Below are positions 4,726-29,171 of a stretch of DNA of 37,078 nucleotides, piece by piece. Source of the stretch: a virus; IMG/VR virus record IMGVR_UViG_3300042922_000843, positions 1 through 37,078 of that record; one strand, given 5' to 3'. Within the stretch, counting starts at the first letter, position 1. Every line of letters starts with the position of its first letter. Under the pieces are notes generated by a model. The model was not told where the DNA came from, searched no databases, and saw only the letters and a list, made by a program, of their open reading frames with translations. The position numbers were made by a program, and so were the translations under genes.

Positions 4726-5874
4726 TTGAATCAAAAATTAATTAACCAAGCTAAATTCCTTGAAAAATATCAAATAAGCCAAGAAAAATTTGAAAAAACC
4801 GGTCTGAATTGGAAAGACTTAGAAAAAATTTATTCAGACTATATTAACTTCAGGCCTGAACTTGATCTAGTTCGAATATACGAAAGCAGAATATTTGAGA
4901 AAATTGATCGTGTACATTCGATAAGATCACGCCTAAAAGACCCTGAACACTTAATAGAAAAAATAATTAGAAAGAAGCTTAAATATCCAAAAAGAGAATA
5001 CACCATTGAAAATTATAAAGACAAAATAACTGATCTAATTGGTTTTAGACTACTTCATATATTCAGAGAAGAATGGATAATCATTCATAAAGACCTAAAA
5101 AAAATAAAAAAACAACTCAGAGAAAAAATCGTTGCTAAGCTTCCAATGGGCGATAATGATGAAATGTTCAAGGCAGAAAAAATAAAAGTTGAACATCAAA
5201 AAACAAGGTATCGATCTGTACATTATCCATTGCTAAGTGAACACGATGGAAAGCGCTATTCTATTGAAGTTCAAGTAAGAACTTTATTTGAAGAAGCCTG
5301 GGGTGAAGTTGATCATCAGTTAAGATACCCTTATAAGCAAAACGATCCAAAATTAAATAGAGAACTTGAAATTCTTGGCGATATATCTGGCAGCGCTGAT
5401 AAATTAGCATCTGAAATAAGTAATACAATTAAAGAACTGGAAGAAAAAAACAAACAGCTTGTTCACTTTTTAAAAGAATCAGAAGCACATAATGATGATC
5501 CACACGAAGATGACACAGATAATAATTGCCAAAATCGTCAATTATATTCAGGAAAAAACAATCCTTTTTCTGCGTCAGCTGTTGCTATGTCTAACATTTC
5601 CAATATTAGTGCTGCATATAAAGCCTATAATCCCGCTAGATCAATAATTGACTTTAATAAGTACCATTCAAGCATGCTAGGAGTACAAAAACAACTCCAG
5701 CAACTAAAGCAATCAGGAATTAATGCACAAGATATTCTTAAGAGTGCATCAATAATTAGCGCAGGACTCGGCAGTACAATGCCCCAAATTTTAAAAAATA
5801 ATGGCTTTCCATCAGCATCAAAGTCCACTGCTAGACCAATTAAACCAGACAAAAATAAAAATAATGATAACTAA
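4726..5874 (+). CDS. RelA/SpoT-domain nucleotide synthetase with C-terminal extension (382 aa)
   Basis: The protein contains the (p)ppGpp-synthetase fold, which transfers pyrophosphate from ATP to a nucleotide, or to tRNA in toxic small alarmone synthetases. Visible motifs are SRLKDPEHLIEK (about 68-79), DLIGFRLL (103-110), RYRSVH (161-166) and EVQVRTLFEEAWGEVDH (181-197) with the catalytic Glu181. There is no HD hydrolase domain and no TGS/ACT domain, so it is not the housekeeping Rel. A coiled-coil stretch (about 220-250) leads to a Ser/Asn-rich extension with no recognised domain. The start is a TTG after CGGAGCG. It follows the membrane protein gene by 20 bp and is closed by a terminator. 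Regulatory synthetase, toxin and phage-defence protein are all possible; the sequence does not decide. Confidence 0.85.
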   Translation: MNQKLINQAKFLEKYQISQEKFEKTGLNWKDLEKIYSDYINFRPELDLVRIYESRIFEKIDRVHSIRSRLKDPEHLIEKIIRKKLKYPKREYTIENYKDKITDLIGFRLLHIFREEWIIIHKDLKKIKKQLREKIVAKLPMGDNDEMFKAEKIKVEHQKTRYRSVHYPLLSEHDGKRYSIEVQVRTLFEEAWGEVDHQLRYPYKQNDPKLNRELEILGDISGSADKLASEISNTIKELEEKNKQLVHFLKESEAHNDDPHEDDTDNNCQNRQLYSGKNNPFSASAVAMSNISNISAAYKAYNPARSIIDFNKYHSSMLGVQKQLQQLKQSGINAQDILKSASIISAGLGSTMPQILKNNGFPSASKSTARPIKPDKNKNNDN

Positions 5875-7538: not shown

Positions 7539-9464
7539 CTACAGATCATATGATACCTGTTCTAAAGATAGATAGGCCAAAATTGTATCGTCTGTTAAAT
7601 CAGTAACCAGTGATAAATGCCCTTGTGTTGTCATTTTTACTAACACGTTGTGAACGTTACCTCCTGCATCGAATCCGCACAAATTAAATACACGCTGTTT
7701 TTTCGGTGCTAAAGAACTATCGATTACGCAGATATCACTACCGCCGGTCTTATTGCCAAAATTAAGAGTTCCGGACATCTGTACCCGGCTATTTTTAACC
7801 TCACATGTAGACAATCCGTATTCTTGCCCGACATTGGTATAACCGTTTATTAGTGAAAATGCAGTTTCTGTAGTATTAATACTTGTTCTATTTATTCCCT
7901 TGGCAAGTGATTTTTGGATATGTTCCATCATTAAGTCAGTGCCAAAGCCATTAGGATGCAGCCCATCTTGAAATAGATTATCCGAAAATGATAAATAAGA
8001 GTAATCAATAACTGATAGTCCGTACTTTTGCGCAACTAAGTATAGAGCGATTCTATAACTTCTGTATCCAGTAACAACAGCTGGCCATGTACCCTCATTA
8101 GGTATGATAGGAGCCGTCAGTATAATTCGAACCTTATCTATAGGATTCATCAATTTAGAAATTATTTTGTCCAAGTTTTGCATATATGCGTTAACCGTAT
8201 TTGCTTTCGACGGATTATATATATCATTGGTTCCAAGCGCGATAACATAAATCTTATTCTGGTTTAGCGTAGAAAATCGATTGATATTTTGAAGAGCTTC
8301 CAATCTGGCATCGTCGCTAAAGTCAGACGTTGTCTCCCCGCTGACTGCGCATCGAATGAAGTTAATAGATCCATATAGATTATTCTGCTGTTGAAGCCGT
8401 ATCAGTCCGATCAGTTCGACTGGGCCATCTTGACAGGTAAGCGTATAGGTAGTTTCATCTGAAAATCCGCTGGAAACTGTCGGGAAAGATGTAGCATAGA
8501 GATCCGTTCCACCACCACAATCAATGATCTTATAAACATTTCCATTATGAGCAACGGCAATCTTACCACTTGTAACTGACCTGTTGAATATTAAGTCAAT
8601 GTATTGAACACTACCAGTAAAAGAAATGGACGCTCCGGGCTGCATAACCAGTGATTTTTTACAAGGTCCGCTTGTTCCTATTGAATAAGATCCACTCAGA
8701 GAAACCGTATTATCCTCCGAAAAATTAGTGATCACTTCAAAATCATTAGGATAACCAACGGAATTTTTCAGCAAATTAAATAGTTTCGAAATGTACTGAT
8801 CGGAGTAAGGAAGACCATATCCGGCTGAAATACTATCCCCGATAAAAATAAGGGATCCTGCGTCTTTGATAAAATCCAGCGACTTAAAAAACTGTTCAAA
8901 AAAAGTTGATGTTTTCGCCAACTTCACCGTAACGTCCGCATTATTTTGATTAAACACATCCAGCTTGGTGTACGTATTCGGATCCAACGTTTCGTATTCT
9001 TGCTTTAATATGTTGATCTGCTCAAGCATCGTTTCGATGTCAGAGAAATAGTCCTGAGCTGGGATGTTGCCTGTCATGGCATCTGGATCAACTTGGAATA
9101 CAAAATTTCCGGTTGTCATGCGCTGCACTTTTCCATCAACTGTTTTTTCAAATGCAAAGTAGGCAAGGTCAATGATACCCAGGCTGGCAAATAGTTTATC
9201 AGTTAATGTGTACTCGATCTTACCGTGTACAGCATCCGTAACAGCCATCGTTCCATTTTCTGATCCATCATCACGGATTGCGTTTCGAGCGGGCGTCACG
9301 CATTCAAAAACAGCTGCACATCCAGTCAAATCAACGGGAACGCCGTTTTGCAGAATTTGAGCCGCAAAGACATTTGTGTAGAAATCGTTACGACGAACTG
9401 TAATTCGCGGATTATGTGATTGGCCATTAAGATCAAGTTTCAAATTAATAATTTTCTTTGCCAT
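7539..9464 (-). CDS. Baseplate/tail-tip protein: BppU N-terminal domain + SGNH/GDSL esterase (641 aa)
   Basis: The first about 130 residues match the BppU-type N-terminal domain (start MAKKIINLKLDLNG, later YFAFEKTVDGKVQRMTTGNF), which docks receptor-binding devices on siphovirus baseplates. A helical linker follows. From about residue 205 comes an SGNH hydrolase: GDSIS (nucleophile Ser211), GTND (about 411-414) and DGLHPN (Asp500, His503). This is the standard ester hydrolase or deacetylase set, so the tail tip probably deacetylates a cell-surface glycan during adsorption. A beta-rich insertion lies between the first and later blocks. The C-terminal about 100 residues look like a beta-rich trimerisation or binding domain. 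The ATG at 9464 follows GGAAGGTGAATTGC. It overlaps the preceding tail gene. Confidence 0.85.
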   Translation of the reverse strand: MAKKIINLKLDLNGQSHNPRITVRRNDFYTNVFAAQILQNGVPVDLTGCAAVFECVTPARNAIRDDGSENGTMAVTDAVHGKIEYTLTDKLFASLGIIDLAYFAFEKTVDGKVQRMTTGNFVFQVDPDAMTGNIPAQDYFSDIETMLEQINILKQEYETLDPNTYTKLDVFNQNNADVTVKLAKTSTFFEQFFKSLDFIKDAGSLIFIGDSISAGYGLPYSDQYISKLFNLLKNSVGYPNDFEVITNFSEDNTVSLSGSYSIGTSGPCKKSLVMQPGASISFTGSVQYIDLIFNRSVTSGKIAVAHNGNVYKIIDCGGGTDLYATSFPTVSSGFSDETTYTLTCQDGPVELIGLIRLQQQNNLYGSINFIRCAVSGETTSDFSDDARLEALQNINRFSTLNQNKIYVIALGTNDIYNPSKANTVNAYMQNLDKIISKLMNPIDKVRIILTAPIIPNEGTWPAVVTGYRSYRIALYLVAQKYGLSVIDYSYLSFSDNLFQDGLHPNGFGTDLMMEHIQKSLAKGINRTSINTTETAFSLINGYTNVGQEYGLSTCEVKNSRVQMSGTLNFGNKTGGSDICVIDSSLAPKKQRVFNLCGFDAGGNVHNVLVKMTTQGHLSLVTDLTDDTILAYLSLEQVSYDL

Positions 9465-12036
9465 GCAATTCACCTTCCAACTTGTCTACTTTTGCGGATA
9501 ACTCTTGCACTGCTTTCATGAGCAAATGGATCTCGTTATAATGATCAACGCCAGCCTTATCTTCGGATAAAAATTCTTTTGGAGTTCTTCGATTTTTACC
9601 GATCACAACGCCATATCGATTGAAGTCACGACCTTCTTTAACATCCTTTTTCATTCGGAAGCTGTAGATATCGGCAGCACTGATAATCTCAAGTGCACTC
9701 TGTTGCATGAGCTTTATGTCTTGTTTCAATGATTCTAGAGACCCCGATTGGATATTCGCATTTTTGATTGTCCAGCCATTCATATTTAGGTCTGTCCACA
9801 GCCCTGTTTCCCCCGGCTGTACAACCATCCGATAGGTGCCTGCAGAGGTCACCCGAAAGATACCGTGGTCCATTTCAAAGCCAGAGTCCCCAATGTTCAT
9901 ATGGTATTCTCCGCCACCGAGCGTAATATAATGATTGCTTCCCGCGTAGAGCCCTAAAGTGTTTCTTTCGAATTTTGCAATGAACGGGAAATCCGAGCCG
10001 TCTTTTCGGTTAATGCTAACGAAGTCGCCATCTTGAATTGCGAGTCCAATGCCTTGCTGATCTGCGGTAAAGATGCGTCCCAATGATGCAAGAAAACGTC
10101 CATCTTTGTAAAACTCCAAGCCGTTCGAATGGAGCCGAGCGGCTGTGTTCCCATTATCGTCCTTTGCAAGTACGATACCGCTAAACGTAGCTGACCCGTC
10201 TGGCTTTACAGAAAACACTTCAGTTCCGCCTTTTAATGCTCGAATTCCAGTAGAATCGATCAATATGTCAAAGTCATTTACGTTCATATGAAATCCATTG
10301 CCATCAAGCCAGATATTCATTGCGCCATTCTGCACGTGGAAGCTAGAGCCGTCAATTGATCCACCGTGAAGAGCAGCACCGTAAGTATTTACGCTTCCAT
10401 CTGTCCCAATATGGAAAACTGGGTTGCCGTCTTTTACAAAGTTGAGTCCGTTGCCGTCGAGCCATCCTTGTAGTCCGCTGTTTTGAATATAAAAGCTTGA
10501 ACCCTCGATCGATCCGCCATGAATTGAAGCCCCATAGGTATCCAGGTTCCCATCTGCATCAACCTTGAATTTTGTCTGTCCGTTTTTTAAAATATTAAAT
10601 CCGTCCGAATTAAGCCACGCATCGAACGACTTGTCCGGATTAAGTGCATGAATATTGGTACCTTCGATCAATATTCCACGAAGAACCCCAGCCGTAATAA
10701 AGTTAGCCACAATCTCGCCATCCATCGTCATGGCTAACTCGTAAGGTCCGTTATAGCCGTGCTTGCTGTAGCCGAGTCCGCCAAGATTCCATCGCCAAAC
10801 CTTCGTAGCTGTAGCAATGTCAGGCGTGTTCATGATCAATATTTCCTGCGGGTTTAGCGCAGGATTTAACCGAACATAGCCACCAGATTGTCCAGTAATC
10901 GCTTGGGTTGCTTTGTTGATTGCTTGCTGTAGAAATCCAGTCGGACTGATTACCTTCCGTGTTTCCTTTTGAGAGTCTTGAAAGTCGGTAACAAAGTTAC
11001 TAACCGGATCACCGAGATCTATGCTGATGTACTGTTCTTTGAGCACATCATAATCGACCTCAATGATCTCCGCTTTTTCAAATATGCTATAGCGAGAAAA
11101 ACGCACAATGACATAATCACACAAGCCGCACTGCTCCAAAGCGGCAATATTTTTATAGTCTTCTGTTTTCCTAAGGTCTTGAAATTTAATTGCCCAACTG
11201 ACGGATGGGCGATCAATCTTGTTATTCTGTGCGTACTTCTGGGCGGCGGCTCGCAGCGAATCAGCATCGGTAACCGATTCGTCCTGAGAAAGATCAAGCA
11301 TTAAAGTGCGTTTCACCGGGTACTGACCTTCTGATGCTAAGTGAATGATCTTCTCGGGCAGTATAATCAGTTGCTGACCGCCATCATCAGTCTGCTTGTT
11401 TGCGTATGGATAAACAGATGTAAACACATTCTCAAGTTCTCTGTCCTGGTTGTAATCCGTCAAGTTCTTACCATACTCGATGGTAACGCCGGTATCTAGG
11501 CCACGCTGCTTCCTGTTTTCAACTAGGAAGTTATCGAAGTGATATTCGCCGCCCCAATTATCCAAGATTGATCCTTCAGTACCACCCAGGGCTTCCCGCA
11601 CATGGCATGGTCCGATCTCAGATGTTGATTCTGCCATGTTGTCTGAAAAGACATTAAACGGATGCGGGTTGAGTGCACCTTCGATTACCTGACCCATAAC
11701 ATGCAATGTATTACCCGCCAGCGTTGTTTTTTCAAGCGGATTGTACATCAAATCATAGCTGATATGATGTGCTTTAAAAGTTACCTTGAAATCGATCGGT
11801 TCAGAGTGAGAATAAATGCGGAACAGCTGGTCATCATCAGTATCGTTGGCTTTTGCTTTAACGATCATGTCATCCTTGATCTCATCAAAATGCCTGCCAA
11901 CGGTCGGATAGACAAACTCAAGATCATACTTGCCATTCCGCTGTTCAATGACGTGGGCCGATATGCAATCGACTAGGTCACCAAGTCCATGATGGTCAAA
12001 GTCCATTTCGTCATTTTTATATAAAATCGGTGTCAA
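9445..12036 (-). CDS. Tail endopeptidase-like / tail-spike structural protein (about 863 aa)
   Basis: This is the large tail-tip (Tal-type) protein of a Gram-positive siphovirus. The N-terminal about 370 residues resemble the phage minor structural/Prophage_tail family that caps the tube below Dit (YKNDEMDFDHHGLGDLVDCISAHV near the start, in part). The middle holds repeated beta modules of about 50 residues with GLNFVKDGNPVFHIGTDGS, YGASIHGGSIEGSSF and YGAALHGGSIDGSSF. The C-terminus (IYSFRMKKD, YGVVIGKNRRTPKEFL, AVQELSAKVDKLE) resembles the S74 intramolecular chaperone of endosialidase-type fibres. A TTG at 12036 is preferred: it follows GGGAGGCGCTGGCG and overlaps the Dit stop. An upstream ATG at 12054 has no ribosome binding site. 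Confidence 0.85.
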   Translation of the reverse strand: MTPILYKNDEMDFDHHGLGDLVDCISAHVIEQRNGKYDLEFVYPTVGRHFDEIKDDMIVKAKANDTDDDQLFRIYSHSEPIDFKVTFKAHHISYDLMYNPLEKTTLAGNTLHVMGQVIEGALNPHPFNVFSDNMAESTSEIGPCHVREALGGTEGSILDNWGGEYHFDNFLVENRKQRGLDTGVTIEYGKNLTDYNQDRELENVFTSVYPYANKQTDDGGQQLIILPEKIIHLASEGQYPVKRTLMLDLSQDESVTDADSLRAAAQKYAQNNKIDRPSVSWAIKFQDLRKTEDYKNIAALEQCGLCDYVIVRFSRYSIFEKAEIIEVDYDVLKEQYISIDLGDPVSNFVTDFQDSQKETRKVISPTGFLQQAINKATQAITGQSGGYVRLNPALNPQEILIMNTPDIATATKVWRWNLGGLGYSKHGYNGPYELAMTMDGEIVANFITAGVLRGILIEGTNIHALNPDKSFDAWLNSDGFNILKNGQTKFKVDADGNLDTYGASIHGGSIEGSSFYIQNSGLQGWLDGNGLNFVKDGNPVFHIGTDGSVNTYGAALHGGSIDGSSFHVQNGAMNIWLDGNGFHMNVNDFDILIDSTGIRALKGGTEVFSVKPDGSATFSGIVLAKDDNGNTAARLHSNGLEFYKDGRFLASLGRIFTADQQGIGLAIQDGDFVSINRKDGSDFPFIAKFERNTLGLYAGSNHYITLGGGEYHMNIGDSGFEMDHGIFRVTSAGTYRMVVQPGETGLWTDLNMNGWTIKNANIQSGSLESLKQDIKLMQQSALEIISAADIYSFRMKKDVKEGRDFNRYGVVIGKNRRTPKEFLSEDKAGVDHYNEIHLLMKAVQELSAKVDKLEGELHGKENY

Positions 12037-15866: not shown

Positions 15867-16685
15867 TTATACCACCGTTACGGTGCAAGTATCAACAGAA
15901 CCGCCGCCAACTGGTGTCGCTGTGATTGTCGCAGTACCCGCAGCTACCGTTGTTACTTTTCCAAGCGCATCGACCGTAGCAATCGCTTCATCACTTGAAC
16001 CATAGGTTGCTGACTTGATCGATGCATTAGCAGGAGCAACAATAGCGCTCAACTGCATGGATTCACCAACGCCCAGTGTAGCTGCTGAAGGTGAAACAGT
16101 AACGCCTGTTGCCGGAACTTCTGCCGGCTTTTCATGGACGTAGTCAAACCAAGAATCATAGGTCTCCTGTGGAGCTGCAGTCGTGCATCGCGCTTTAACC
16201 ATTTTTGTATCCGGACGTTTTTCGGATGTGATCGTAACCGTCGAAGTCTGAGGTTCAATAGAGTCAGAAACTGTTCCTGATTCATCCGTAGGACGACTAA
16301 CCGAGCAGTAATAGTTCACGTGCTTTGTAGCGCGCGCGTCACCTTCAAATTGATAAAATAGCGCAAACTTTTTCAAATGTTCAGGCTTCGGCTCTCCGCT
16401 CTCGAAAGCTACACCATTGATAATTTCTTCGCCTAGGCAGTCCGTGCGGAATTCATCCGGAATCTCTGCCATTTCGAGATCCCCACTGTAGCCGTCATTA
16501 GTCGCATAGCCCCAGTACACGCCGTTGTCGGCGCGAAAACGCACCGGATCACCTTGGGCCTCGAGCGAGATGTTCACAGCCCCTGGCCACGGCTTAACTA
16601 ATCCATAAACAATAGCTGCAGGCGCGTCCTGGATCACCGGTGCCCAATGGACATTAGAAAGACCGTATTTCACTTTATTGCCCAT
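15867..16685 (-). CDS. Major tail protein with C-terminal Ig-like (Big_2) domain (272 aa)
   Basis: This is the tail-tube subunit. The first about 190 residues match the phi13/TP901-1 major tail family (KVKYGLSNVHWAP, then SLEAQGDPVRFRADNG and FALFYQFEGDARATKH). An acidic linker leads to a bacterial Ig-like group 2 domain of about 80 residues (GVTVSPSAATLGVGESMQL, later GTATITATPVGGG). Such domains decorate the tail surface and are thought to help weak adsorption to cells or surfaces. The ATG overlaps the end of the upstream gene. Read-through or frameshift is not needed here because the Ig-like domain is encoded in frame. Confidence 0.9.
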   Translation of the reverse strand: MGNKVKYGLSNVHWAPVIQDAPAAIVYGLVKPWPGAVNISLEAQGDPVRFRADNGVYWGYATNDGYSGDLEMAEIPDEFRTDCLGEEIINGVAFESGEPKPEHLKKFALFYQFEGDARATKHVNYYCSVSRPTDESGTVSDSIEPQTSTVTITSEKRPDTKMVKARCTTAAPQETYDSWFDYVHEKPAEVPATGVTVSPSAATLGVGESMQLSAIVAPANASIKSATYGSSDEAIATVDALGKVTTVAAGTATITATPVGGGSVDTCTVTVV

Positions 16686-18164: not shown

Positions 18165-19433
18165 TTAAACCTCAGGCGTAATGGTGATTAACGCAAATGC
18201 TTGCGGCTTAACCGGTTTGCCGTCAAATCGTCCTTTGCCGCGGAATGCTGTCTGGTCCTCGACAAACTTAACTTCTTTCGAGCTGTCAATCGTGATAGAC
18301 TCGCGTTCAACCAAAGTATACTTAGAAAAGTCACCGAACAGGATCGTATCCTCGTCCAAATTGTTATTGAACACGACACGCAGACCAACTAGATCAGGAT
18401 TGCGGAGATTCGGCAGCTTACCGACTACGTTGCCAGAAGAATCCACATTGATGCTGTATTCGACCAAACGGTTATAGTACGTACTGCGCTTCATGACCGA
18501 CACAATTTCGCCAACAGCATCAAGACCTGTATCGATCAGGCCGATTTTCTTCACCAAATTAATCAACAGTTTTTCGTCAGCAACAACATCTACCTTGTTG
18601 CCTGCAGGAATTTGAGAAATGATCCCTACTGGCTGCTTGCCAGCTGCACCGGTGCCTTTAACAATCGCAAGATCGAGTGCCAAAGCAATTGCTCGAGCAA
18701 TCTTCTTCGTGACGTAAGTATCCAGATTAATGATGCTGTCCTGCAGAAGATAATTATCAACAAACGTTACCTTTCCGACTTTCCAGCCGTCGAAGTCAAC
18801 TTCACCGATCGTGCCAACGTCGCCAGTCGGAATCGCACCAGGCATTTCAATCCAAGATGCTGCAGTTGTATCCGTGTCAATTAGAATTCGAGTTGTACCT
18901 TTGACCTGGATCCGATCAACCAACGGGTAGAGCGTTGTGAAATCGCCCATGATATCCATGATTCGATTAACAACGATTTCCGGAATCGTTAGTTCGCCAC
19001 CAGAAACCGCACGCAAATTTTTGAATTTATCATAAAACTCACGAACTTCTTCTCGCTTGTAATATTCACCGGTCTTCAATAGTTCCCTTACCTGAAATCT
19101 GTTCATCTCTTCTGATGCCCCCTCCTGGCTTCTGTGATTCGACCGCGTTTGTTTCGGCGGCTCCTTACTGTTCAGTTCGTCCAATTCAGTCTCAAGCTGA
19201 GTGATCTCGCCCTCAAGTTTGCTTTTCTTCCCATCAAATTCCGCTTTATCAGCGTCTAATTTATTTGCCTCTTCTTCAACCGCAGCGATTTCTTCATCCG
19301 TCTTGGCTTCACCGATCGCTTTTTCAATATCCGAAGATCGAGTTTTCAAGGCTGATTCTTGCTCGGTCAATGCTGCAAGTGCTGTTTTCCGCTGTTCGAT
19401 TTTCTTGGTTAACATAATTTGTTTTAGTGCCAT
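18165..19433 (-). CDS. Major capsid protein, HK97 fold, with scaffolding delta domain (422 aa)
   Basis: Residues 1 to about 95 form a charged coiled coil (for example KIEQRKTALAALTEQES, later EGEITQLETELDEL), typical of the delta domain that acts as internal scaffold and is removed by the prohead protease. The HK97 capsid fold follows: LRAVSGGELTIPEIVVNRI, RILIDTDTTAASWIEMPGA and the conserved end AFRGKGRFDGKPVKPQAFAL. The likely cleavage point lies around residues 100-130, but the exact site cannot be read. Its start overlaps the end of the protease gene. Confidence 0.94.
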   Translation of the reverse strand: MALKQIMLTKKIEQRKTALAALTEQESALKTRSSDIEKAIGEAKTDEEIAAVEEEANKLDADKAEFDGKKSKLEGEITQLETELDELNSKEPPKQTRSNHRSQEGASEEMNRFQVRELLKTGEYYKREEVREFYDKFKNLRAVSGGELTIPEIVVNRIMDIMGDFTTLYPLVDRIQVKGTTRILIDTDTTAASWIEMPGAIPTGDVGTIGEVDFDGWKVGKVTFVDNYLLQDSIINLDTYVTKKIARAIALALDLAIVKGTGAAGKQPVGIISQIPAGNKVDVVADEKLLINLVKKIGLIDTGLDAVGEIVSVMKRSTYYNRLVEYSINVDSSGNVVGKLPNLRNPDLVGLRVVFNNNLDEDTILFGDFSKYTLVERESITIDSSKEVKFVEDQTAFRGKGRFDGKPVKPQAFALITITPEV

Positions 19434-20281
19434 ATCTTTTTCAACCTCTCTTCCAAATTGTGTTTTTTCTGAACCAGCGCACGCTCTTGGTGCTGCTTAA
19501 CTTCAGCTTTGCGCGCCTGTACGCCTGTATCCTCATATTGCGGAAAGGTGCAAATGGAAACCTCATGTAAATCAATCTGACGGAGTGTCCATTTTACGGT
19601 TCCATCATCTCTAAAATCTGCATCTTCCTGCTGAATGTTAAAACCGAACGAACACTGTGATACGTCTCCACGCTTCACACGTTCATAAACATTCACCGCA
19701 TCTGAATCATTTGGATTAATTTTAACGCTGCCCCAAAGCCCGTGAGAGTCCGCTCGAAGTTCAAGGGTACCCGACTTGTTCCGGCCAAGCACCAACGTTG
19801 TATCATGGTTTATCAAAGCCCGAACATCATTGCTTAATGCTTCATCAAAAGCGGCCGGAGCGATTTCCTCAAATGCTCCTGGCCATAATTCGGTTTGCTT
19901 ACCAAATACAGCAAAATAGCCTTCAATTACTGGTGCCTGATCCCCATCTGCATCGCGCGTTTTGAGTTCAAGATTTGCGCTTCTAATCTGACGATCATCC
20001 CTATTCACTTCAGAACGTTTTGAGCGCTTGTCCTTATCTTCATCATCCAATGGTTCCATTTCTTCTTGGATCACCCATTTATGGTTCTTGACTGTTTTTC
20101 CAGTCTCCGTGTCCGTATAGGTCACTTCATAAACAGTTGTTGCGTAAGCATGATCAACTGTTGCAGTTGCGCCCTTCATCCCCGGCATGTGATCAGCCAA
20201 AAGCTTAATTTCGGTACCTTCCGGGTATTTAGGATTTTTAGCTTTCTTTACTCCTTTCGGAGCTCCGCCGCCCATATCCAT
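19424..20281 (-). CDS. Prohead protease (HK97/U35) fused to an N-terminal YdhK/DUF1541 domain (285 aa)
   Basis: The C-terminal about 190 residues are the HK97 prohead maturation protease, which trims the capsid delta domain: IEGYFAVFGKQTELWPGAF, LINHDTTLVLGRN with catalytic His, and DVSQCSFGFN with catalytic Ser. The first about 80 residues are different and match the YdhK/DUF1541 domain of Bacillus surface lipoproteins: NPKYPEGTEIKLLADHMPGM, ATATVDHAYATTVYEVTYT and VKNHKWVIQEE. There is no signal peptide or lipobox. The ATG at 20281 follows AAGGAGGTGGATGGA, so the fused form should be the translated one; no good ribosome binding site is seen at the join (DDEDKDKRSKRSEVN). Portal and capsid genes flank it normally. 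Confidence 0.9.
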   Translation of the reverse strand: MDMGGGAPKGVKKAKNPKYPEGTEIKLLADHMPGMKGATATVDHAYATTVYEVTYTDTETGKTVKNHKWVIQEEMEPLDDEDKDKRSKRSEVNRDDRQIRSANLELKTRDADGDQAPVIEGYFAVFGKQTELWPGAFEEIAPAAFDEALSNDVRALINHDTTLVLGRNKSGTLELRADSHGLWGSVKINPNDSDAVNVYERVKRGDVSQCSFGFNIQQEDADFRDDGTVKWTLRQIDLHEVSICTFPQYEDTGVQARKAEVKQHQERALVQKKHNLEERLKKIWH

Positions 20282-20296
20282 TCCATCCACCTCCTT

Positions 20297-21523
20297 TTAT
20301 TCCGGATCTGCCGGTTGATTGTTCTGATTCAATTTCTTTTGATCACCGATCATGCCGGCCGGGATGTAGTTCTCCAAAATCACGCGCTCATCAAGACCAG
20401 GAAGCGGCGTTTGACCGAGCCAATCCCGAACCTCGTTACCGGTCATAATGCCGCGCACATACATATCACCGCCGACCGTTGCGAGCTGCTGAATGTCGTA
20501 AGCGTATAGTGATCGTGGATTGAACCGGAAATAAAGATCAGGCGAATAGAGCAATTTGCGTGTTAACTCTTGCTCTACACCTTGCGCGATCGGTAGAATA
20601 CGAGAGTTAATAAATGCGTTGTATTCATCCTTCTTGAAATCTCCTACGCCAGCAAAAAAAGCCGGCACCCCTAAGATGCCCGCCACTGTTCGTTTATCAA
20701 GTTGTACAGCGTCATTAATAGCTAAGTCGGTAAGAGAAAGTGGCTTGACCTGGTCCACCTTAATGAGTTCAGAGGGAACAATCCAAGGTTTCCCACCACT
20801 GGTTTCAGTAATATATTTATTAAGAATTTTGTCGCGCCCTTCAGGACTAGACAGCTCGTCGGTCATTGCATCTACAGAGACAATGACCGATGGCTTCCAC
20901 TTGTCTGACATGAAGCCATTCTTTGTTTTACTCGCTTGCTTCAAGTTGTCAACGATATCCTTTAGCACGACTCGAAATCCTTGCCCGATCCACGGTCTTT
21001 CAGGATCCGGGTTGATCACAAAATGCAGCACTTCATCATAATCGTATCGATTGCCACTATAGAGCACCTGATAGCCATCTGGTGTATCCAAAAAACTAAC
21101 TTGAGATGGTGGCAGCGGTTGAAGATCAGTAATGTATCCGTCACTATCAATCTTGGGATAGACTACGCTGTTCCCTTTTCCATCAAGCAATAAATTATAA
21201 ATAATGCTGTACATCCAATTCTTTCGCGTCATTAACCCATATGGATTAATATCAATCTTACGCGATAGTTCGTTTTTAACACGGACATCGCCATCTGCTG
21301 TATTCTGCATTAAGTGGATTGTCATGCTGCTAACCAAATCCGCTATTCTGTTCACGCACATGCGAACCTCAGGATTGTCTGAAAGTCGCGTATAGCCGGT
21401 AACCGCAAGGGAAGATAAGTCCTCTCCATCGATCCAATGGACTAATGCAGTTTGCTGTTCTGTTGGTTCTGATCGAATGCGTTGCCGTCCACGGTTGCGC
21501 CTGCTTCCTCGTTTACTCACCAT
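20297..21523 (-). CDS. Portal protein, HK97 family (408 aa)
   Basis: This forms the dodecameric ring through which DNA enters and leaves the capsid. It opens with a basic segment ([14 protein letters not shown]), then [28 protein letters not shown]-like sequence, the long stem region and LRYS-type C-terminal crown. Characteristic stretches include [17 protein letters not shown] and [17 protein letters not shown]. Length is typical of the HK97 portal family. It lies three bases from the terminase stop and 15 bases from the protease start. Confidence 0.92.
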
Positions 21524-21526
21524 CTA

Positions 21527-23248
21527 TCAACTCCCTTCTAGCCACTTTGAGGCTTCACTTTTTTTCTCCATATTTTCAAGCATTCTAATCGCCGCAAATA
21601 CCGATGCATCGAATAAGTCAATGCGTTGTGTCGGTAATACTTTCTCGTACTGGATCATGTCGTCCGTCTTCTCAACAGCAGCCACATTTTGCACGCAGTA
21701 CTCATATGCCTGCGAGTGAAGATAGTAGAACTTTCCATCCTTCGCTTTTTTCTCGATACGGCGGAACCCTTCAGACTTTTTGTAAAAATACTGCGGTTGA
21801 TCAATGATTTTGAATCCCTTTGATTTCATGGCCAAGAAGAATTCACGACTAAACTTGCGGTCAAAACCAACCTGTTTGATTCGGAAGCCAAGAAGCTTCA
21901 TTTTCACGAACCACTTAACAATGTCCGTATGGTTAACGGTCGGCGTATTGCACATATCGAGCCAACCATCATCTTTCCATCCGAATAACGGAATATTGTC
22001 TTCTTCTGCTTTTTTGCGAGCCGCTACGATCGGAAACCAGGCATGAGAAATAGCAACATCCACGCCCTTGTAAACTCCGTACAGCACGCCGGCTGTTAAG
22101 TCATGCATCTTCGACAAATCCGCGCCGCCATACCACTGAATTGGTGCCTTTGCGAGTTCATTGAGCGTCCAATTATATTCCCGGTCGGATGCTCTAAATT
22201 CGTCAATGTTGAAGTAAGCCCTCATCGCCGACGTGTAGACATTCAGAGACTTTGATAAATAATCTTTCCTCTGCTGCGGATCGTTCTGCGCTTGCAGCGC
22301 GTCATTGATCATGTCTTCCGGACGGATCGTCACGCCATAGTTCGGATTTGCTTTCTCGTGTTGCTCCGGGTTTGTATAATCAACATCGCCGTTTTTTGAT
22401 TCCTCCGCTTTTGTAATAAAAACAAAGTAAGCATCATCGGTAATCGTGCCGGCAAGGATTTTCAAACAATACTGCAGTCGTTGATAGCAGAAGCTTGTCA
22501 TATCGTCGCCGGCGGTCGTTATTCCGATCATCAGCTTATTGCTGTAAGCTTTCATTGCCTCTTTGATAATGTTGTATTGCTTAGGTGTCTTGTAAGCGTG
22601 CATCTCATCGGCGATCCCGATGTTACAGTTCAGCGAGTCCTGCTTGTCCGGATTTGCTGCCAGCGCCTTAATGTAAATGGATCCATCGCCGAGATCACCA
22701 GTGACACTGTGCTCCTGGTTGTTATCTAAAATTCGAAAGTTTTCTTCCTCGCCCATTTGACGGAGATTAAACAAAATGAAATTAAAACTCTGCAACGATT
22801 GATCAAGAACCGCACTGGTAATGTAAATCTTCGAACCGGAGCGCCTGTTCAGCAGCGACAAAGCCCACGATAATGCGGCAACAAAGCGCGTCTTCCCATT
22901 CTTTCGAGGAATATAAATAAACGCTTCTTTGAAACGTCGCAGTTTTGTCCCCGTCTGAAAAAAGCCAAGCAAATTATAGATGATAAACTTCTGCCATGGC
23001 TCCAATAAAAAGGGCTCCCCGCGGAGCGGAGTGCCATCTAATCGTTCGCCTTGATCGTGAACGAATGTTTTCTCGATGATGCCAATAACAAACTCGGCAT
23101 CTTTCGGTTTAAATTCCCATTTCTCATTTCTAATGTCATTCAAAAACCGCCAACAAGCTTGGACAAGTTCTTTACAAGCGATTTTCTTTCCGGTGGCAAC
23201 ACTCTTGGCATATTCGATAACCGCATCATGATTCGGATATTTATTCAT
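21527..23248 (-). CDS. Terminase large subunit (573 aa)
   Basis: This is the DNA-packaging motor and endonuclease. The ATPase part has Walker A at about residues 113-120 (IPRKNGKT) and Walker B in [11 protein letters not shown]. The nuclease part begins around [20 protein letters not shown] with a metal-binding Asp in GGADLS, and continues [12 protein letters not shown]. It belongs to the Terminase_1 family, commonly associated with HK97-type cos phages, which agrees with the nearby HNH gene. Its start overlaps the small subunit stop by four bases. Confidence 0.93.
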
Positions 23249-28649: not shown

Positions 28650-29171
28650 TTAATTATTTTCAGTTTTTGATCCTAGAATCATATCTGTTAATTCGTCACG
28701 GTCAATCAAACTAATGGCAGTAGATATCGCCAATTTTTGGGCTTGCAAAGTAAAGAAGTTATTTGTTATTACCCATGCACACCGTGCTTCATAATAATCC
28801 CTTGCTGAATTAACTTCTTGTACAGCCCTGACGCCAACCTTTTTTCCGTATCTTTTTGCCTGAACTACAATTCGATCTTCACCATCAAGAATCAGATCTG
28901 CGCCGAAATCATTAGATGCCGGTGTTCGCTTTACTCTATACCCTAATTTCTTGAAAAAAAGCTCTAAGTAATGCTCAAACTCTGATCCCGTCATCAGGTC
29001 AATTTCATACATACCAGCTTGACTCAATCGTTCTTCATATTTACGGTATCGATAATTTGATATCAGTGTTGAAACAATATAAGTAAGAAGAACCGCAGAG
29101 ATCAATATTATTCCGAATGTGATAATAAAATTAATATCAGGGTTAAAATCAATGACATTCAGAATTTCCAC
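28650..29171 (-). CDS. Membrane-anchored Mrr-like restriction endonuclease (173 aa)
   Basis: The N-terminus has one strong transmembrane helix (about 14-36: INFIITFGIILISAVLL). From about residue 58 it matches the Mrr_cat (PF04471-type) PD-(D/E)XK fold: TGSEFEHYLELFFKKLGYRV, DFGADLIL with Asp92, VVQAKRYGK with Gln104 and Lys106, then CAWVITNNFFTLQAQKLA. This is the catalytic set of the D-QxK subclass. Known relatives restrict modified or foreign DNA. There is no separate DNA-recognition domain, so specificity is unclear. The membrane anchor would place the nuclease at the site where DNA enters. It is directly downstream of the xtrA-like gene. Confidence 0.85.
   Translation of the reverse strand: MEILNVIDFNPDINFIITFGIILISAVLLTYIVSTLISNYRYRKYEERLSQAGMYEIDLMTGSEFEHYLELFFKKLGYRVKRTPASNDFGADLILDGEDRIVVQAKRYGKKVGVRAVQEVNSARDYYEARCAWVITNNFFTLQAQKLAISTAISLIDRDELTDMILGSKTENN

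Follow-up and report, generated by a model that had tools for sequence, protein, structure and literature searches.

HK97-family prohead proteases (S78, TIGR01543) are the closest described relatives of the protein reported here. In Geobacillus phage GBSV1 and Ruminococcus gnavus phages, they are encoded in the order terminase-portal-protease-capsid and have catalytic domains 64-67% identical to the one described below. Auto-cleavage of the prohead protease and removal of long head-protein propeptides have been reported for phage SPN3US (PMC10052503), and the capsid protein of HK97 is cut at K103/S104 (PMC10275583). A second related system is provided by the YdhK/CopL lipoproteins (structures 4MDW, 4FIB and 2KY9), which carry the domain of unknown function DUF1541.

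We analyzed a 37,078-nucleotide stretch of viral DNA (IMG/VR record IMGVR_UViG_3300042922_000843, hereafter the window) in which the two systems meet in one gene. Gene order is the same as in GBSV1 and the R. gnavus phages, but their proteases lack DUF1541 and are homologous to the window protein only from about residue 92-100. The window protein shares with YdhK/CopL the domain and the stretch preceding repeat 1, and is about 60% identical to the nearest copies in bacteria; it differs in having one copy rather than two, in lacking a signal peptide or lipobox and in being fused to a protease. The features of the locus are as follows.

18165-19433, minus strand: HK97-type major capsid protein gene, with a coiled coil of the delta type bordered by TRS/HRS motifs (PF05065, TIGR01554; sequence)
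19424-20281, minus strand: DUF1541-Peptidase_S78 fusion, prohead (head maturation) protease of 285 residues (open reading frame; Pfam, NCBIfam and PHROGs matches)
19487-19969, minus strand: Peptidase_S78 catalytic domain (Pfam; alignment)
19979-20056, minus strand: linker (EPLDDEDKDKRSKRSEVNRDDRQIRS) with KRS, KRS and a conserved QxRS, the proposed cleavage region (sequence; R-S enrichment in relatives)
20006-20008, minus strand: GTG codon of Val92, the ancestral protease start (aligned with the starts of relatives)
20066-20218, minus strand: DUF1541 core, PF07563 positions 2-52 (Pfam; YdhK structures)
20219-20281, minus strand: YdhK-like stretch preceding the core (MDMGGGAPKGVKKAKNPKYPE; phmmer against 4MDW; alignment)
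20288-20296, minus strand: Shine-Dalgarno sequence AAGGAGGTG, immediately adjoining the stop codon of the portal gene (scan of every in-frame start)
20297-21523, minus strand: portal protein gene, upstream (PF04860, 1.4e-60)
21527-23248, minus strand: terminase large subunit gene (Pfam)

A DUF1541 domain on an intact prohead protease

The protease gene occupies its usual place between the portal and major capsid genes and, as the original prediction had stated, is intact, encoding 285 amino acids with no internal stop. Pfam matched DUF1541 over profile positions 2-52 of 52 (E = 2e-24; 85.6 bits against a gathering cut-off of 25) and Peptidase_S78 (PF04586; E = 5.9e-50), both well over the curated cut-offs, and NCBIfam assigned the protein to proheadase_HK97 (TIGR01543; 2e-46). 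The N-terminal part matched the solved Bacillus subtilis YdhK structure 4MDW with an E value of 1.3e-34 in phmmer, the alignment beginning at residue 4 of a 288-residue reading, and the stretch before the core is homologous to the region preceding YdhK repeat 1. An N-domain model built from an alignment of 52 DUF1541 sequences had a mean pLDDT of 76 and 4MDW as its top PDB match (E 2.4e-5, TM 0.68). A single-sequence AlphaFold model reached a pLDDT of 42, with a C-terminal helix as its sole usable feature. With the model as query, Foldseek found nothing significant among viral models, its top row being a 451-residue protein of the same length as the protease of Lactobacillus phage ATCCB. A chance or low-complexity match was ruled out by the Pfam, phmmer and model matches.

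The profile search and structure prediction that the original prediction had proposed therefore uphold its N-terminal DUF1541/YdhK match. Its description as the DUF1541 repeat needs one correction: the fusion holds a single copy, the only DUF1541 in the whole IMG/VR record, whereas the bacterial YdhK proteins examined hold two in tandem. We looked for a signal peptide with a lipobox cysteine and found none; the protein begins MDMGGGAPKG and has no cysteine ahead of the protease part. The Pfam and 4MDW matches likewise support the oddity first pointed out, that of a YdhK-type domain within a cytoplasmic virion-assembly enzyme. On the protease side, the predicted His and Ser motifs are retained, the columns of His159, Ser211 and Glu240 being invariant in the alignment with relatives. 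These three are the presumed catalytic residues. The original prediction named Peptidase_U35; the family is S78, MEROPS U35 being an older name.

Elsewhere in the window, 7539-9473 encodes a BppU N-terminal domain with a GDSL lipase/acylhydrolase, likely a baseplate or tail-tip protein, and 15867-16685 a tail protein with a C-terminal Big_2 Ig-like domain. A RelA/SpoT-type domain protein (4726-5874; 1.9e-16) lies a few genes past an FtsK/SpoIIIE-like gene (1739-2875), and 28650-29171 encodes an Mrr-type restriction endonuclease domain protein with a probable N-terminal membrane anchor, judging from its sequence.

Start codon and insertion scar

The scan of in-frame starts bore out the ribosome-binding site predicted ahead of the fused start, with a perfect 9-base Shine-Dalgarno match 6 nt upstream of the ATG at 20281. 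No such match precedes the old in-frame GTG at codon 92, and a translation start after the domain, which the original prediction had named as one of two findings that would refute it, was rejected on this ground. Unfused relatives begin at the codon aligned with Val92 (GTGAGCAGGGAC in L002 and ATGAATAGGGAT in L190, against GTGAATAGGGAT in the window), and the portal gene extends over the protease start in both L002 and GBSV1. Because the ancestral start survives as an in-frame GTG without a ribosome site, the scar shows that a YdhK-type segment was inserted between the ribosome-binding site and the ordinary S78 start codon. An assembly chimera is unlikely, as the join lies within one reading frame, is served by an apt ribosome-binding site and has a GC3 like that of the protease (0.41 versus 0.39), though this judgment rests on a single record.

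The inserted segment includes MDMGG..PKG..KAKNPKYPEG plus one DUF1541, and resembles the YdhK first repeat together with the stretch preceding it. When scored between repeats 1 and 2, it gave +13.9 bits, against +69 and -69 for a true repeat pair, and this intermediate value indicates that the segment is not a very recent copy.

The placement exactly between ribosome-binding site and start codon, the relatives without the domain and the rarity of fusions would all suit a near-neutral hitchhiker, an in-frame insertion tolerated as the N-terminus is discarded. We consider this rather unlikely, since the same domain is present on several phage head proteases, where key DUF1541 residues are conserved, and since both sequence and model indicate an intact fold.

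DUF1541 and other extra domains on head proteases

In searches that were pattern-limited or sampled, covering one genome for each of some 85,000 species and roughly 800 additional genomes from the orders to which a Bacillus and a Paenibacillus belong, this exact fusion was not found and the two halves occurred apart. Among S78 relatives in viral contigs (80 relatives), none of the 78 N-termini inspected had such a domain, and nearly all relatives are without DUF1541. As a second copy was not found, the exact fusion is known from one record. In 395 genomes of the order Lactobacillales, only YdhK-type proteins, mostly tandem, were recognized among the DUF1541 matches listed. Two unannotated "phage" records (MT835720 and OR847008) proved to hold tandem YdhK-like proteins on contigs rather than fusions, and open frames of 608 and 626 residues in two genomes (G430 and G1044) were ordinary unfused proteases. 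Among the papers searched, none that mentions DUF1541 concerned phage proteases by title, and the ATCCB isolation paper does not mention the domain.

A viral sequence search did identify DUF1541 on other head proteases. In Lactobacillus phage ATCCB, to whose contig another (L189) is near-identical, it occupies residues 333-383 of the S78 protease. In the ClpP-type head proteases L090 and L154, it lies between a coil segment and a C-terminal tail that is also present in unfused relatives. In all three, the domain is placed between the catalytic core and the terminal tail, or in a linker. The expectation of other phages with the same fusion thus holds in part: DUF1541 is found on head proteases of two folds, and none of these has the exact N-terminal S78 arrangement. 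Judged from the sequences, DUF1541 is joined to two unrelated protease folds, S78 and ClpP.

Phage DUF1541 genes are also found outside proteases. Standalone proteins of 130 residues (154 in L158 and L159) ending in DUF1541 are encoded in another phage group (L091 and L157-L161), in L158 and L159 close to terminase genes. On a further IMG/VR contig (L006:5803-6408), a tandem-DUF1541 YdhK-like lipoprotein gene, possibly a moron, has an HNH-type gene on one side and a terminase small subunit-like gene on the other.

A tree built from 82 domain sequences rests on only 71 columns, with unsettled bootstrap, and places ATCCB on a long branch; in it, the L090, L154 and ATCCB domains formed one group (100/94) and the window domain grouped with YdhK first repeats (99/92). 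A single clade for all four protease-linked domains was not rejected (p 0.22). The window, L090 and L154 share an HAY motif that none of 118 first or 118 second repeats from bacteria contains, and this sharing would fit one origin of all four. Head proteases thus acquired DUF1541 at least once, and probably two or more times.

The grouping of ClpP and S78 copies in one clade argues that the module crossed between unrelated proteases. Together with its N-terminal, internal or C-terminal position on two folds, as if it served the protease rather than a particular position, this would favor a permanent docking or regulatory module that sets protease amount or activation timing by binding to the portal, or to the capsid or scaffold domain. 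This explanation is possible but less likely than not: nearly all close relatives function without DUF1541, the C-terminal helix or tail is a likelier docking element and is present in fused and unfused forms, and in other phages the slot is taken by an unrelated, HAD-like domain. Control of protease self-packaging or a role at the capsid interior, both put forward in the original prediction, would be possible.

The HAD-like example comes from the following prophage, in a genome belonging to the same order as a Bacillus.

G584 contig C1, about 140 kb (L272/L280): S78 protease with N-terminal HAD-like domain

This protease is 72% identical to that of the window. Its extra domain of about 119 residues, containing YAIDFDGTLC, matched phrog_24386 (5e-41) and phrog_1238 (3e-29), with Pfam Hydrolase_3 at only 0.02, and stops directly before ERQTRS. 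The head maturation protease of Lactobacillus phage LJ has a related N-terminal domain (L281:2492-3448). With the HAD-like and DUF1541 cases, domains of at least two kinds have been taken up at the S78 N-terminus. The C-terminal region of the Lactobacillus phage Maenad protease (L284, from 1477) contains three copies of KLPANEVIVKPKKR.

Proposed release during maturation and comparison with known systems

The window protein is an S78 prohead protease with an acquired domain that is probably removable. Our preferred reading, to which we give a probability of roughly 0.4, takes DUF1541 as a removable pro-domain or passenger at the N-terminus: it would reach the prohead together with the protease and be released by cleavage as the particle matures. 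In the window, DUF1541 lies upstream of the conserved Q-x-R-S. Across relatives, Q[TIMLV]RS precedes the IEGYF anchor, mostly by 15-21 residues, in 44 of 68 distinct sequences against 0.4 expected from shuffles, and R-S occurs within residues 76-125 of the adjoining capsid proteins, at the coiled-coil delta boundary, in 38 of 66 against 10.7 expected; in both cases the sequences are related and so not independent. Enrichment at the protease N-terminus and the capsid delta boundary makes R-S a probable cleavage site. We infer that QIRS, and perhaps both preceding KRS motifs, are self-cleavage sites, and the shared motifs make it plausible that the window protease would cleave both the capsid protein and itself. 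The ClpP-type fusions need not have the same R-S specificity.

By analogy with its protease family, the fused protein would enter the assembling prohead with the capsid protein. The shared motifs suggest that the protease would then cut itself at the basic R-S sites between the domains (KRS, KRS and QIRS) and would cut the capsid delta domain at similar sites. Inside the head, the freed DUF1541 of about 10 kDa would most likely mediate a transient interaction, help assembly or remain as a small DNA-associated cargo. The cargo variant would be weakened by the general expectation that propeptides exit the head (PMC10052503). In ATCCB, DUF1541 is flanked by EHRS and EYRS. The ATCCB prohead protease (ORF87) was among four proteins detected by mass spectrometry in purified virions, with 2 peptides (PMC6563214); if these were fully tryptic and 6-40 residues long, only pairs outside DUF1541 fit.

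Recurrence on the shell-maturing enzymes of unrelated phages suggests that these enzymes are carriers for a removable extra domain into the growing particle. A wider version, in which a slot outside the catalytic core takes interchangeable domains (DUF1541, HAD-like and others) that are self-freed, kept in the virion and delivered to the next host, is in our judgment unlikely.

Copper buffering or sensing in the prohead or infected cell by a CopL-like domain is very unlikely. The tandem DUF1541 lipoprotein CopL is required for copper resistance, with conserved His/Met copper binding modelled on 4MDW (PMC5947656), and the window, L090 and L154 copies keep H-M-x2-M and the His of HxW. With these putative ligands, metal binding is possible in the window. 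However, the domain would be cytoplasmic, none of the window genes read is a copper gene, and the ATCCB copy is down to one His and one Met; having lost most ligands, that copy, if counted, rules out metal binding as the common function. DNA binding within the head is more improbable still: purified CopL shifts DNA, but its binding is electrostatic, with a pI of 9.0 and none at pH 8.0 (PMC6593408), and is disfavored here because the copies linked to phage proteases are acidic (pI 4.1-5.4, charge -3 to -8). A role in protein interaction during assembly, or as cargo, would fit without DNA or copper binding.

DUF1541 gains a place outside copper-resistance lipoproteins: in several phages it is joined to the protease that matures the capsid, an enzyme of either of two unrelated folds. 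A second domain type in the same N-terminal slot makes it testable whether the maturation protease imports extra domains to the head, and the window protein, with one possibly removable domain, offers a small defined system for protease packaging and timing.

Among known systems, the ATCCB prohead protease (ATCCB_0087) also joins S78 and DUF1541 in one protein; its domain differs in being C-terminal, after an acidic linker, and divergent (5e-7). The proteases of IMG/VR 2667527752 (L090) and 2876160631 (L154) likewise lie between portal and capsid genes and carry one DUF1541, but have the unrelated ClpP-type fold, with the domain inserted ahead of the C-terminal tail. The phage LJ protease (LJ_39) and the L272 prophage have, as in the window, an extra N-terminal domain on an S78 protease, but a HAD-like one. 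Effector domains on phage head proteins are also described for MuF/portal fusions and for polyvalent proteins with a C-terminal assemblin-like peptidase (PMC5512222), an account not known to include DUF1541. As in the window, extra domains are placed on or before head-assembly proteins; delivery or proteolytic release has been proposed for them, whereas for the window protein delivery would be putative.
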